The translations under genes and the position numbers were made by a program. From Clavibacter michiganensis subsp. tessellarius (GTDB lineage Bacteria > Actinomycetota > Actinomycetes > Actinomycetales > Microbacteriaceae), in assembly GCF_021922985.1 (NCBI RefSeq), contig NZ_CP040788.1, positions 1,612,001 to 1,676,000 on the forward strand: DNA of 64,000 bases. The letters run 5' to 3'. The stretch's first letter is position 1. Every line of letters begins with the position of its first letter. Shown here in pieces: positions 36,419 through 43,001 of the stretch. Below the pieces are notes generated by a model. The model saw only the letters and a list, made by a program, of their open reading frames with translations, was not told the origin of the DNA and made no database searches.

Positions 36419-39040
36419 TCAGGTGGGGATGACCTTGAAGAGCACCTTCCGCGTGACCATGAACCAGATCGCCGCCAGCACGAGCGTGTGGACCACTGCC
36501 CCCTGCCAGGGATTCGACCTGTCGAGGAACGGCAGGCTGCCGACGATCAGCACGAAGAACACGTGGACGATGAACACGTAGAGGCTCGCGGATCCGAGCG
36601 GCGTGTAGAACCAGCCGAACGCGCGGTCGACGGGCTTCCACACCCGGGTGAGGAACGTGTACGCCACCACGAGCATCAGCCCGAGGTCGAGGAGCCGGCC
36701 CGGCTGGAGGAACGTGCGCTGGTACATGGACTCGTACAGCGACGAGTAGAGGCCGTCGGGGACGCCCGGGATGGTGACGCCGTACGTGTGCCCGGCCCAC
36801 AGCACGGCGAGGGCGCCCACGTACGCCACCACGAGGATCGACACGAGGACGCGCCCCAGCCGTCCCGTGAGGGCGCGCGTGATCTGCCGGCGGTAGTAGC
36901 CGATCACCATGCCGTTGAGGAACGCCACCTGCCACGTGAGCAGGGGGAAGACGTCCTCGAACATCGACGGCAGCACGCGGATGTCGAACTGGGCGTTGAG
37001 CACGTACGCGGTCCAGCTGACGATGAGCACGACCCACCACATGCGGCGGCGGAGCAGCCACACGATCGCGGGGACGAGCAGGGTCAGCACCACGAACAGG
37101 CCCATGATGTTGAACACCCACGGGCCCATGCGCAGGAGCAGCAGGTCGCGGATCGCGTACCAGGGCGGCGGGTAGTCGAGCAGGCGCGCGCCGTTGGGGT
37201 AGAGGTCGTAGACCTGGCCCGTGGTGACCTTGCCGTCGGCGCCCGTGCCGCGGTCGGTGAAGGTCGTGATCACGTCGGTGTCGAGGAACGGCACGAACGT
37301 GAGCGCGAACACGATGACGACCACGGCGATCGCCACGATGTACTGCTTGAAGGCGCGCCGCAGGATCGAGACGAGCGCCTTCAGCTCGCCGAACCTCTTC
37401 ACGGCCATCGGGTAGACCATGCCGAGCACGAGGCCGGAGAGCAGCACGAACATCTCGGCGCCCGTGATGGCGCCGATCGCGTTGATCGTCACGTACGAGT
37501 ACGGGCTCGCGACCTCGATGTGGGTGATGACCACGGCCACGATGGTCCAGCCGCGGAAGAGGTCGAGGCGGCGGTCGCGGGGCGAGTTCTCGTCCGGGTA
37601 GCGCCAGCCGGGCTTGAGGCGGCCGATGGGACCCGAGATCACGAAGAGGAGGAGGAGCACGACCGCGCACAGCACGATCCAGCCCATCTGCTCGTCCTCG
37701 GGCGATCCCGGATCGCGGTACTGCGCGGTCGCGACGTTCGCGCGCTCCTGGTCGAAGACCTGCGTGACGGGGCCGAGCGTCGCGGTGGCGGGATCCAGGT
37801 GGGCGAGCAGGGCGGACGCGACCGTCGCGTCGCCGGTGGCCCGCCAGTCGATGACGACGCCCTGGGCCTCGGCCTCGGTGCGCTGCACCTCGCGCCAGAC
37901 CACCATGCCGATGCCCGGGTGCGCGGCGCGGATGTCGGCGGAGAGCACCTGGTCCCACCAGGCGCTCTTGATGTCGATCTCGGAGGCCCCATCGGTGCGG
38001 GCCGGGTCGTAGAGGGCGCCCGTCTCGATGACGGCCGGCTTGCCGGTGCCCTCGATCCACTCGGCCGCGAAGTCGCGCCCGGCGCCGCTGTCGTCGGCGT
38101 ACCCGTACCGCCCCGCGAGCTCGCGCGCGAACTTGCCCTCCTCGGGCACGACGTTCTTGCCGAACTCCTGCTGCGGGATCACCTGGCTGCCCAGGTAGTC
38201 CTCGGTGGGCTGCCCGACCGTGAAGTCCTGCTCCGATCCGAAGTGGGACGCGGAGAGGCCCACCCAGTCGACGGCCTCGTCGCCCGGGTAGTACGGGCGG
38301 TAGGCGTCGTCGTCCACGTCGACGCGGCCGTTCCCGTCGGTGTCGAGCTCGGCGATGGACCGGGTGCCGGAGGCGTCGGTGAGCCCGTCGGCGGATCCGA
38401 ACGGGTAGCCGGCCGCGTACGCGGGCGACCACACGGTGACCGCGCCCGCGTCGGAGGCGTGGACGGCGTCGGCGACCTGGCGGAAGGCGGCGACGTACGC
38501 AGACGGCTGCTGGCCCCAGGGGGTCCACGAGCCGTTCATCTCGGGGGCGAACCGCACGAGCGCGCGGGAGTCGTACCGCTCGCGGAGCGCGTCGAGCCGG
38601 TCGGTGAGGGCGGTGGCGTCCGCCGCCGTGAGCTCGGCGAGCGGCACGGTCGGCTCGAGCGTGAGGAAGAGGAGCGAGCCCTGCTGGGCGGCCTGCTGGG
38701 CGAACTGGTCGAGGTAGGTGACGTCGTCGGATCCGAGCGGGTAGCGCACCGACTGGCCGAGCACCGCCGGGGTGGCGCCGAGGCGGTCGGCGTAGCTCTG
38801 CGCGTCGTCCGCCGTCCAGTCGATGATGCCGCCGAACCACGGCGCGGCCGGGCCGCGCGTGAGGTCGACGTCGTCGACCGGTGCGGCGGGCGCCGTCGCG
38901 GTAGGCTGCGGCGCGGCGAGCGCCGCCGTCGCGGGCACGACGGCGATCGCGAGCGCGACCATCGCCGCGGCCCAGCCGCGGATCCTGCCCCGGGCGGGCG
39001 CGCCCCCGCGCGCCCGGTCCCGTCCCCCGACGCCGCGCAT
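36419..39040 (-). CDS. GH26-like hydrolase fused to an OpgC-type acyltransferase
   Basis: An 873-aa fusion. Residues 1-43 are a signal/anchor. Residues 65-400 resemble glycoside hydrolase family 26 (beta-mannanase type): RFAPEMNGSWTPWG carries the acid/base Glu167 and KPAVIETGA the nucleophile Glu339, both intact; an EF-hand-like DTDGNGRVDVDDD (233-245) may bind calcium. Residues 455-873 form a transmembrane acyltransferase of the OpgC/acyltransferase-3 class (DLFRGWTIVAVVITHI, MFVLLSGLVLGM) with about ten helices. It is last in the partner-switch/glycosyltransferase operon, overlapping the upstream stop (TGATG), so it probably trims and acylates the exported glycan. Confidence 0.8.
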   Translation of the reverse strand: MRGVGGRDRARGGAPARGRIRGWAAAMVALAIAVVPATAALAAPQPTATAPAAPVDDVDLTRGPAAPWFGGIIDWTADDAQSYADRLGATPAVLGQSVRYPLGSDDVTYLDQFAQQAAQQGSLLFLTLEPTVPLAELTAADATALTDRLDALRERYDSRALVRFAPEMNGSWTPWGQQPSAYVAAFRQVADAVHASDAGAVTVWSPAYAAGYPFGSADGLTDASGTRSIAELDTDGNGRVDVDDDAYRPYYPGDEAVDWVGLSASHFGSEQDFTVGQPTEDYLGSQVIPQQEFGKNVVPEEGKFARELAGRYGYADDSGAGRDFAAEWIEGTGKPAVIETGALYDPARTDGASEIDIKSAWWDQVLSADIRAAHPGIGMVVWREVQRTEAEAQGVVIDWRATGDATVASALLAHLDPATATLGPVTQVFDQERANVATAQYRDPGSPEDEQMGWIVLCAVVLLLLFVISGPIGRLKPGWRYPDENSPRDRRLDLFRGWTIVAVVITHIEVASPYSYVTINAIGAITGAEMFVLLSGLVLGMVYPMAVKRFGELKALVSILRRAFKQYIVAIAVVVIVFALTFVPFLDTDVITTFTDRGTGADGKVTTGQVYDLYPNGARLLDYPPPWYAIRDLLLLRMGPWVFNIMGLFVVLTLLVPAIVWLLRRRMWWVVLIVSWTAYVLNAQFDIRVLPSMFEDVFPLLTWQVAFLNGMVIGYYRRQITRALTGRLGRVLVSILVVAYVGALAVLWAGHTYGVTIPGVPDGLYSSLYESMYQRTFLQPGRLLDLGLMLVVAYTFLTRVWKPVDRAFGWFYTPLGSASLYVFIVHVFFVLIVGSLPFLDRSNPWQGAVVHTLVLAAIWFMVTRKVLFKVIPT

Positions 39041-41808: not shown

Positions 41809-43001
41809 GCCCGCCTCACCGCGAGGACGGTCACGTCGTCGAGCGGTGTGCCGGCCGAGGCGAGGATCCGCACCCGCTCGATGAGCGCGTCCACGCCGCC
41901 CGACTCGCGCACGAGCGCCCCGATCAGCTCGAAGGCGGGCGTGCTGCCGCCGAACATGTCGAACAGGCCGTCGCTGAAGGTCACGAACGTGTCGCCGTGG
42001 CCGAGCACCGCATGGCGCTCCTCCCACTGGTGCTCGGGCACGATCCCGACCGGCATGTCGGTCGTGCCGAGGTGCGTCACCGAGCCGTCCGGGTGCACGA
42101 CGATCGTCAGGCCGTGCCCCGCGTCCGCGTAGCGGAGGAGGCCCGACGCCTGGTCGAGGTGCCCGTGCTGCAGGGTGACGAACGAGCTCGTGCGCTCGAG
42201 GTCGGCCTCGAGGGAGCGTGCCGCGTCGGTCACTATGAGGCCCGTGTCCTCCAGCACGCCGGCGCCGAAGCGGTCGGCGGTGGCGGCGATGCCGCGGAGG
42301 ACGGCGCGCACGGTGGCGGTGAGGATGGCCGCGCCCGTGCCCTTGCCCATCACGTCGGCGATGGAGAAGCGCAGGCCCGACGGGGTGCGCTCGTAGTCGT
42401 AGAAGTCGCCGCCGACCACCTGGGCGGGCACGCACACCGCGGCGATCTCGTATCCGGGCAGCTGCACCTCGGCCTCGGGCAGCAGCGCGGACTGCACCGC
42501 GTGGGCGCGCTCCATCTCGGCGCTCGCGACCACCTCGCGCTGCGCCCACTCCGCGAGCTCGGCGAAGAGCACGAGCTGCGCGGCGTCGAACGGCCGCGGA
42601 CGGACGTCGTAGATGCAGAACGTGCCGATGACGACGCCCTCGGAGTCCCGCAGCGGGTGCCCGGCGTAGAAGCGGATGTGCGGCTCCCCCGCGACGGTCG
42701 GCAGGTGGCGGAACACGGGGTGCTCCTGCGCGTCCTCGACCACGAGCACGCGCTCCTCGCGCACGGTCGTGTCGCAGAAGACGGTGCTGATGGGCGTCTC
42801 GGAGAGCTCGGCGCCCGCGCAGGACGCGAACCACATCCGGTCGTGGTCGGCGAGGCCGATGGTCGACAGCGGCACGTCGAACGCCGTGCGCGCGAGCCGC
42901 GTGACGCGGTCGAAGCGCTCCTCGGGCGGCCCGTCGAGCAGTCCGAGCGCCTCGACGGCACGCTGCGCGGCGAGTGCCCGCGCGTCCTCGATCAGAGTCA
43001 T
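41805..43001 (-). CDS. GAF-PP2C (SpoIIE/RsbU-type) phosphatase
   Basis: A 398-aa regulator. Residues 20-165 are a GAF sensor domain (GLADHDRMWFASCAG, FYAGHPLRDSEGVVIGTFCIYD) and residues 190-398 a SpoIIE-class phosphatase with all metal-binding aspartates: VVGGDFYDY, SIADVMGKG, DAGHG, SDGLFDMFG and DDVTVLAVR. It should dephosphorylate the STAS protein two genes downstream in response to a GAF ligand or redox signal. The ATG follows AAGGGGCGGGG. First gene of the operon. Confidence 0.92.
   Translation of the reverse strand: MTLIEDARALAAQRAVEALGLLDGPPEERFDRVTRLARTAFDVPLSTIGLADHDRMWFASCAGAELSETPISTVFCDTTVREERVLVVEDAQEHPVFRHLPTVAGEPHIRFYAGHPLRDSEGVVIGTFCIYDVRPRPFDAAQLVLFAELAEWAQREVVASAEMERAHAVQSALLPEAEVQLPGYEIAAVCVPAQVVGGDFYDYERTPSGLRFSIADVMGKGTGAAILTATVRAVLRGIAATADRFGAGVLEDTGLIVTDAARSLEADLERTSSFVTLQHGHLDQASGLLRYADAGHGLTIVVHPDGSVTHLGTTDMPVGIVPEHQWEERHAVLGHGDTFVTFSDGLFDMFGGSTPAFELIGALVRESGGVDALIERVRILASAGTPLDDVTVLAVRRA

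Follow-up and report, generated by a model that had tools for sequence, protein, structure and literature searches.

A STAS-RsbW partner switch within a BcsA-like glycosyltransferase operon of Clavibacter, with the synthase as its probable target

The operon and its proteins

We analyzed an operon of Clavibacter michiganensis subsp. tessellarius that combines the proteins of a partner-switching module with a BcsA-like family-2 glycosyltransferase (GT). It lies in a 64,000-nucleotide stretch (the window; contig NZ_CP040788.1, positions 1,612,001 to 1,676,000) of a 3.37-Mb genome. Five genes, all on the minus strand, encode in order a GAF-PP2C phosphatase, the GT, a STAS protein, an RsbW-like serine kinase, and a fusion of a GH26-like domain with a membrane acyltransferase (Table 1). 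Judged from the coordinates of their open reading frames, they overlap in series by 4 bases (GTGA), 4 bases (ATGA), 11 bases, and 1 base. An earlier interpretation, here called the sequence-only reading, had described five translationally coupled genes in this order; the coordinates, overlaps, and Pfam matches all agree with that description.

Residue inspection and alignments also bear out its claim that the metal ligands of the phosphatase, the serine of the STAS protein, and the ATPase boxes of the kinase are present. The phosphatase contains D199, D216, D344, and D388/389, which we take to be the metal-binding aspartates, and each site is kept in 86–89 of 92 aligned PP2C sequences. Ser57 of the STAS protein lies in the motif DSSGLG. 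A serine occupies this predicted phosphorylation site in 111 of 119 aligned STAS proteins, and the eight exceptions are the eight STAS proteins of the sister clade described below. We likewise take E57 and N61 (N-box), Asp96, and Gly98 to be the box residues of the kinase: the N-box glutamate and asparagine are present in all 104 aligned sequences, Asp96 in 85, and Gly98 in 63. The conservation of the serine and of the kinase N-box argues for selection on phosphorylation.

The closest relatives of the GT include Clavibacter proteins with 95% and 87% identity. BcsA cellulose synthase carries a PilZ domain at its C-terminus. The window GT matches BcsA in the PDB (7lby, E 2.5e-65) and shares its family-2 motifs (DDG, DAD, FFCGS, TED, and QRLRW); the catalytic motifs are kept in 103–104 of 104 aligned sequences. 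Unlike BcsA, it has a STAS partner and scores 344.8 bits against the NCBIfam CelA model TIGR03030, under the curated cut-off of 699.1. It also has no PilZ match among its Pfam results, as the sequence-only reading had stated, and the last helix of its AlphaFold2 model stops at residue 652 of 664. A further difference is an insert of ~155 residues before the TED motif, deduced from positions 245–399 of the GT profile being unmatched in E. coli BcsA, where the alignment breaks off after residue 447 and picks up again at 449, leaving a single BcsA residue at this place. The spacing from RR to TED is 155–178 residues in 125 of the 126 GTs measured in clade A, and 122–129 residues in all eight GTs of clade B, the two clades being defined below. 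In the AlphaFold2 model, the insert forms helices at residues 261–286, 293–314, and 319–358, plus shorter ones. Conservation is lower in the insert (mean majority share 0.54) than in the catalytic halves (0.82 and 0.85), but near-fixed residues within it include T323, D341, D348, S383, and P384. On the basis of this model and alignment, the insert is a candidate regulatory docking domain.

For the last gene, the sequence-only reading had proposed a GH26-acyltransferase fusion. The acyltransferase half stands and is of the OpgC type; the GH26 label is weakly supported, with the window protein scoring 13.2 bits and a relative (L092) 21.2 bits against a Pfam cut-off of 20.2 (PF02156). The best PDB match of this domain by sequence search was endoglucanase H (E 5e-4), and a profile search gave a beta-1,3-xylanase (E 2e-5) and AlXyn26A (E 0.0015), all of which we take to be GH26 enzymes. 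E167 and E338, presumably the catalytic glutamates, are both kept in 6 of 17 aligned sequences, including those of the window and of Clavibacter michiganensis. At least one is replaced in the other 11, among them three Curtobacterium sequences that carry Gln and Asp. Such substitutions suggest that in several lineages the domain may be a pseudo-hydrolase that binds rather than cuts glycan.

Table 1. Features of the operon and its surroundings in the window
Feature	Position	Strand	Evidence or remark
GAF-PP2C phosphatase (SpoIIE/RsbU-type), 398 aa	41805-43001	-	Pfam SpoIIE 105.5 bits, GAF 63.6 bits
BcsA-like family-2 glycosyltransferase (GT), 664 aa	39814-41808	-	Pfam Cellulose_synt 69.1 bits, Glyco_trans_2_3 61.0 bits
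Helical insert of the GT, ~residues 259-413	40570-41034	-	Between FFCGS/RR and TED motifs; alignment, AlphaFold2
STAS (RsbV/SpoIIAA-like) protein, 112 aa	39479-39817	-	PF01740 64.2 bits
Predicted phospho-Ser57 codon of STAS	39647-39649	-	
RsbW-like HATPase_c_2 serine kinase, 149 aa	39040-39489	-	PF13581 44.8 bits
GH26-like domain + OpgC-type membrane acyltransferase fusion, 873 aa	36419-39040	-	OpgC_C 177.3 bits; GH26 by weak matches
GH26-like domain	~37721-38842	-	Weak sequence and profile matches
OpgC-type acyltransferase domain	~36452-37579	-	PF10129 177.3 bits, cut-off 21.4
Ferritin_2 protein gene	35293-36354	-	Directly downstream of the operon
Acyltransferase-3 gene	43222-44370	+	Divergent; split by in-frame stop codon at 43372-43374
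tRNA-Leu (taa)	49205-49282	-	No other Rfam match in the window reaches gathering score

Conservation of the gene order and the sister clade

Loci were collected from several partly overlapping samples (L068 and L152 carry identical GTs). A GT search of 199 genomes of the family matched 37, and leaving out the window and one weak match (G092) gave a family sample of 36 loci in 35 genomes. Scanning genome_contigs with a pattern gave at least 583 confirmed relatives, of which the 80 best were analyzed; these are best matches rather than an even sample. In a GT tree built with FastTree, with a midpoint root for drawing only, eight GTs (clade B) stand opposite the other 127 with 100% local support; the family sample comprises 32 loci of clade A and four of clade B. 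STAS and RsbW genes were counted when on the same strand downstream of the GT, within 1.5 kb for STAS and 2.5 kb for RsbW; PP2C and GH26-like/OpgC matches were counted within 5 kb of the GT.

The switch genes recur beside the GT throughout clade A. STAS lies just downstream in 30/32 family loci and 64/80 of the best genome_contigs loci, and RsbW in 29/32 and 73/80, respectively; both are present in 27/32 and 63/80, and at least one in 32/32 and 74/80. A PP2C gene is found in 27/32 and 64/80. The GH26-like/OpgC model, which also matches GH-only genes, finds a partner in just 14/32 and 38/80. The conserved core is therefore PP2C-GT-STAS-RsbW, and the notion of a five-gene unit does not hold. The gene-order search of actinobacterial genomes suggested in the sequence-only reading thus showed GT-STAS-RsbW across many genera; hosts among the matches listed are Nocardioides, Arthrobacter, Curtobacterium, Frigoribacterium, Gordonia, Dietzia, Mycolicibacterium, Cellulomonas, Geodermatophilus, and Microbacterium. 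The system is nonetheless patchy, since at E 1e-100 the GT occurs in 15 of 297 genomes of an even order-level sample and 2 of 396 of a phylum-level one, counting the window genome in each. Eighteen loci were taken from these two samples, namely 12 of the main clade A (L172–L183), L184, L189, and four of clade B. STAS and RsbW are downstream of the GT in all 12 of the former and in the phylum-sample locus L189; both are missing from L184, where the GT is a second copy in the L181 genome.

A chance neighborhood was rejected on this recurrence. In the window genome, STAS is found in four places only, two of them within frames of transporter size (546 and 564 aa). Carriage on a mobile element was also rejected: no GT match at E 1e-60 was found in 72,556 plasmid records, from which records near the window genome were possibly excluded.

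Clade B consists of L084–L087 from the family sample and L185–L188, and its loci hold a GT, a STAS, and a GH-like gene. STAS is present in all eight, separate in six and fused to the GT in two (L084 and L085), where it forms the C-terminal domain in a single frame of 796 and 791 aa. A third fusion, P0122, is a metagenomic protein. The fused STAS domains score 26.4 bits (L084 and P0121, the latter named Pseudoclavibacter) and 23.6 bits (P0122) with PF01740, for which the cut-off is 22.6. Ala or Pro replaces the predicted phospho-serine in 8/8. No RsbW or PP2C match was obtained in these eight loci, of which L185 covers just ~490 bases upstream of the GT, and whole-genome searches of four clade-B genomes (G118, G173, G133, and G186) gave no RsbW relative. 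Clade B also forms one group with support 100 in a STAS tree that is otherwise poorly resolved (107 columns). Because its STAS is retained or even fused despite the Ala or Pro, we conclude that STAS stays with the GT even where serine phosphorylation is impossible.

Separation of regulators and synthase, which the sequence-only reading had named as a counter-case, is not the rule and is seen in two clades (12 Curtobacterium-clade and three Arthrobacter loci). The 16 of 80 loci without STAS comprise ten from Curtobacterium, three from Arthrobacter (L092, L096, and L097), L114, and two at contig ends (L146 and L167). L114 is a second GT copy, and the other copy in that genome (L130) has the module. 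The ten Curtobacterium loci form one GT clade of 12 with L056 and L058, and three Curtobacterium genomes (those of L099, L107, and L124) have a strong STAS match outside the GT locus. In the STAS tree, the trans STAS of G031 and G105, the genomes of L056 and L058, joins the GT-adjacent STAS of G163 with support 96. In L065, L081, and L161, STAS is beside the GT and no RsbW was detected next to it; the genome of L065 (G026) has an RsbW match elsewhere. RsbW is fused to GAF-PP2C in one frame in L072 (5509-7119, 536 aa) and L083 (5581-7212, 543 aa), with one STAS preceding the fusion and another following the GT; in L072, RsbW is upstream of the GT.

The surroundings of the operon are partly shared within the genus. 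The Ferritin_2 gene is in the same place in three other same-genus loci (L052–L054), and L052 and L054 have, in the place of the split acyltransferase-3 gene, a gene ~33% identical to its 3' piece.

The target of the switch

The sequence-only reading had proposed that the state of the STAS protein directly gates glycan synthesis. Its placement of STAS on the synthase, and not on a sigma factor, is supported by the conserved order, by clade B, by the fusions, by the absence of a linked SigB/F/G-type sigma factor, and by four genomes in which no such sigma factor was found; the SigF-like gene of the window genome described below makes dual targeting of synthase and sigma possible. Reasoning from sequence comparisons, we judge it somewhat probable that the partner switch outputs on the synthase itself, with unphosphorylated STAS as an activating subunit of the GT and RsbW and GAF-PP2C as its kinase and phosphatase. 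The GT would polymerize and export a beta-glycan. Unphosphorylated STAS would bind its cytosolic face and switch it on, candidate sites being the helical insert or the C-terminal edge where BcsA has PilZ. RsbW would phosphorylate Ser57, sequester STAS, or both, holding the synthase off; GAF-PP2C would sense a signal and dephosphorylate STAS, restoring synthesis; and the GH26-like/OpgC protein would trim or hold the product and acylate it. The unphosphorylated form is taken as active because clade B keeps only an unphosphorylatable one, and SypA is likewise active when unphosphorylated, according to excerpts of PMC10120452. A more specific proposal stands, in our estimation, at about an even chance: that STAS replaces PilZ and cyclic di-GMP (c-di-GMP) as the regulatory means, docked on the insert, that serine phosphorylation gates synthesis post-translationally, and that clade-B STAS is a permanent, unphosphorylatable subunit, fused C-terminally in two genomes. 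No GGDEF domain was found at E 1e-10 in 17 of the 36 GT-bearing genomes, including all four of the window's genus.

RsbU-RsbV-RsbW-SigB and SpoIIE-SpoIIAA-SpoIIAB-SigF are the classical sigma partner switches. They use the same three protein types and motifs as found here, and the window STAS scores 73.9 bits with the anti-sigma antagonist family TIGR00377, above the cut-off of 53.45. Unlike in those switches, no SigB/F/G sigma factor was found in the cluster, and the gene order is built around the GT. Because the window genome has a SigF-like gene, we retain as a rival an ordinary anti-sigma circuit, in which RsbW would bind a sigma factor whose gene lies elsewhere, with the operon as one target among others. 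That gene (L171, 1889-2968) scores 227.1 bits with TIGR02980, just under the cut-off, and is near neither STAS-RsbW module of the genome; a GAF-ANTAR-like gene, judged by eye, adjoins it. The second module, with two PP2C genes, is at G000:C1:2144018-2147480 (L019, 6001-9499), and no sigma gene was noticed beside it in a 15-kb stretch, for which no model search was made. Among the 36 GT-bearing genomes, none has a TIGR02980 match above the cut-off, and 13, including the window genome, have matches of ~197–228 bits that we read as SigF-like. Matches of ~84–110 bits, unclassified, occur in many genomes, and weak sub-cut-off region-3 matches are also present. Sigma control is disfavored by the loci themselves: in line with the sequence-only reading, which saw no sigma factor in the operon, no SigB/F/G-type gene was found in 136 loci (134 with the GT), in a scan that gave two RpoD-like matches (L160 and L166) and that extracytoplasmic function (ECF) sigma factors lie outside. 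In eight of the 36 genomes, moreover, the single TIGR02980 match is at RpoD level, and in four of these (G074, G115, G122, and G137) the GT cluster includes both STAS and RsbW. The sequence-only reading had allowed that a sigma factor encoded elsewhere might be the true partner; a SigF-like candidate does exist in the window genome, whereas these four genomes have the module with an RpoD-level match only. A sigma factor as obligate target is weakened by the scan of the 136 loci, by these four genomes, and by clade B, in which STAS is kept without the serine and with no RsbW found in the locus. We consider the anti-sigma circuit improbable.

Alternatively, RsbW could be the effector, clamping the GT as if it were a sigma factor until unphosphorylated STAS pulls it off. 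Among the best 80 loci, RsbW is at the GT more often than STAS (73 versus 64), and in the 12 Curtobacterium-clade loci no STAS separates it from the preceding GT; the two genes overlap by 4 bases in L056 and L058. The Curtobacterium and Arthrobacter loci without STAS at the GT keep this explanation alive. It sits poorly with clade B, which keeps STAS, fused in two cases, and shows no RsbW in 8/8 loci or in the four genomes searched whole, and with the three loci that keep STAS at the GT and have no RsbW detected beside it; we regard it as unlikely, if less so than the anti-sigma circuit. The persistence of clade-B STAS without phospho-serine, and without a kinase or phosphatase in the locus, would also suit a subunit with a passive role in the assembly or stability of the GT, with phosphorylation tuning something else or vestigial. 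The near-universal serine and the invariant kinase N-box of the aligned proteins speak against such a role, to which we give very little credence.

Several observations weigh against direct control of the synthase by STAS. All 12 Curtobacterium-clade loci have RsbW and no STAS at the GT, and G031 (L056) and G105 (L058) carry a STAS-RsbW pair away from it. Arthrobacter L092, L096, and L097 have neither protein at the GT, and a STAS-RsbW pair lies elsewhere in both Arthrobacter genomes searched (those of L092 and L097). Searches of G198 (L081) and of the genome of L161, where the STAS serine is intact, gave no RsbW relative. As clade B is one clade, its serine loss and missing kinase count once; kinase control may have been lost in clade B or gained in clade A, and G671 and G791 hold a clade-A module as well as a clade-B locus. 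In a coupling analysis of 104 GT-STAS-RsbW triples (effective number, Neff, 73.5), in which a few columns dominate the top pairs, the insert was not enriched, with 0.0049 of its pairs passing a threshold that 0.005 of all pairs exceed; the share peaked in the N-terminal 90 residues of the GT, at 0.0077 with STAS and 0.0098 with RsbW. Confidence in the AlphaFold2 model of the GT is no more than moderate (mean pLDDT 67.4, pTM 0.61). GGDEF was found in 19 of the 36 GT-bearing genomes, and the window genome carries the one SigF-like sigma factor described above.

Relation to known systems and significance

Partner switches with enzyme outputs are already known; the sources cited in this section by PMC number are used in excerpt. 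The STAS or STAS-like partners HsbA, BgrV, and SiaC modulate diguanylate cyclases (PMC8457831). In the SiaABCD, HsbA-HsbD, and BgrV-BgrR systems of Pseudomonas and Sinorhizobium, as proposed here, phosphorylation of a STAS or STAS-like output protein controls an enzyme and not a sigma factor (PMC8457831). Those systems act on diguanylate cyclases and hence on c-di-GMP, whereas the module described here is inside the synthase operon, and 17 of the 36 GT-bearing genomes gave no GGDEF match.

SypA of Vibrio fischeri, to which the sequence-only reading had compared the operon, is also a single-domain STAS protein, active when unphosphorylated; it controls biofilm polysaccharide below transcription, and its target is described as unknown (PMC10120452, PMC4517449). 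SypE combines kinase and phosphatase in a single protein, and the syp locus has 18 genes; here, RsbW and PP2C are separate proteins encoded in the operon, and STAS adjoins, or is fused to, a BcsA-like GT. A glycosyltransferase with a STAS domain, Anabaena all4160, is cited in a review (PMC8256260); its STAS is N-terminal, whereas that of the clade-B fusions is C-terminal. A search of the open-licence PMC literature found no description of this gene order, of a partner switch inside a BcsA-like synthase operon, or of STAS in the place of PilZ.

The module offers a genetically linked candidate target for STAS proteins that do not act on sigma factors, of which SypA, with its target stated to be unknown in excerpts of PMC10120452, is an example. 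Clade B provides a natural control: its loci show no kinase, and STAS would still be expected to act on the GT. More broadly, the operon may represent a c-di-GMP-independent switch of a cellulose-like synthase, present across many actinobacterial genera, including some mycobacteria.

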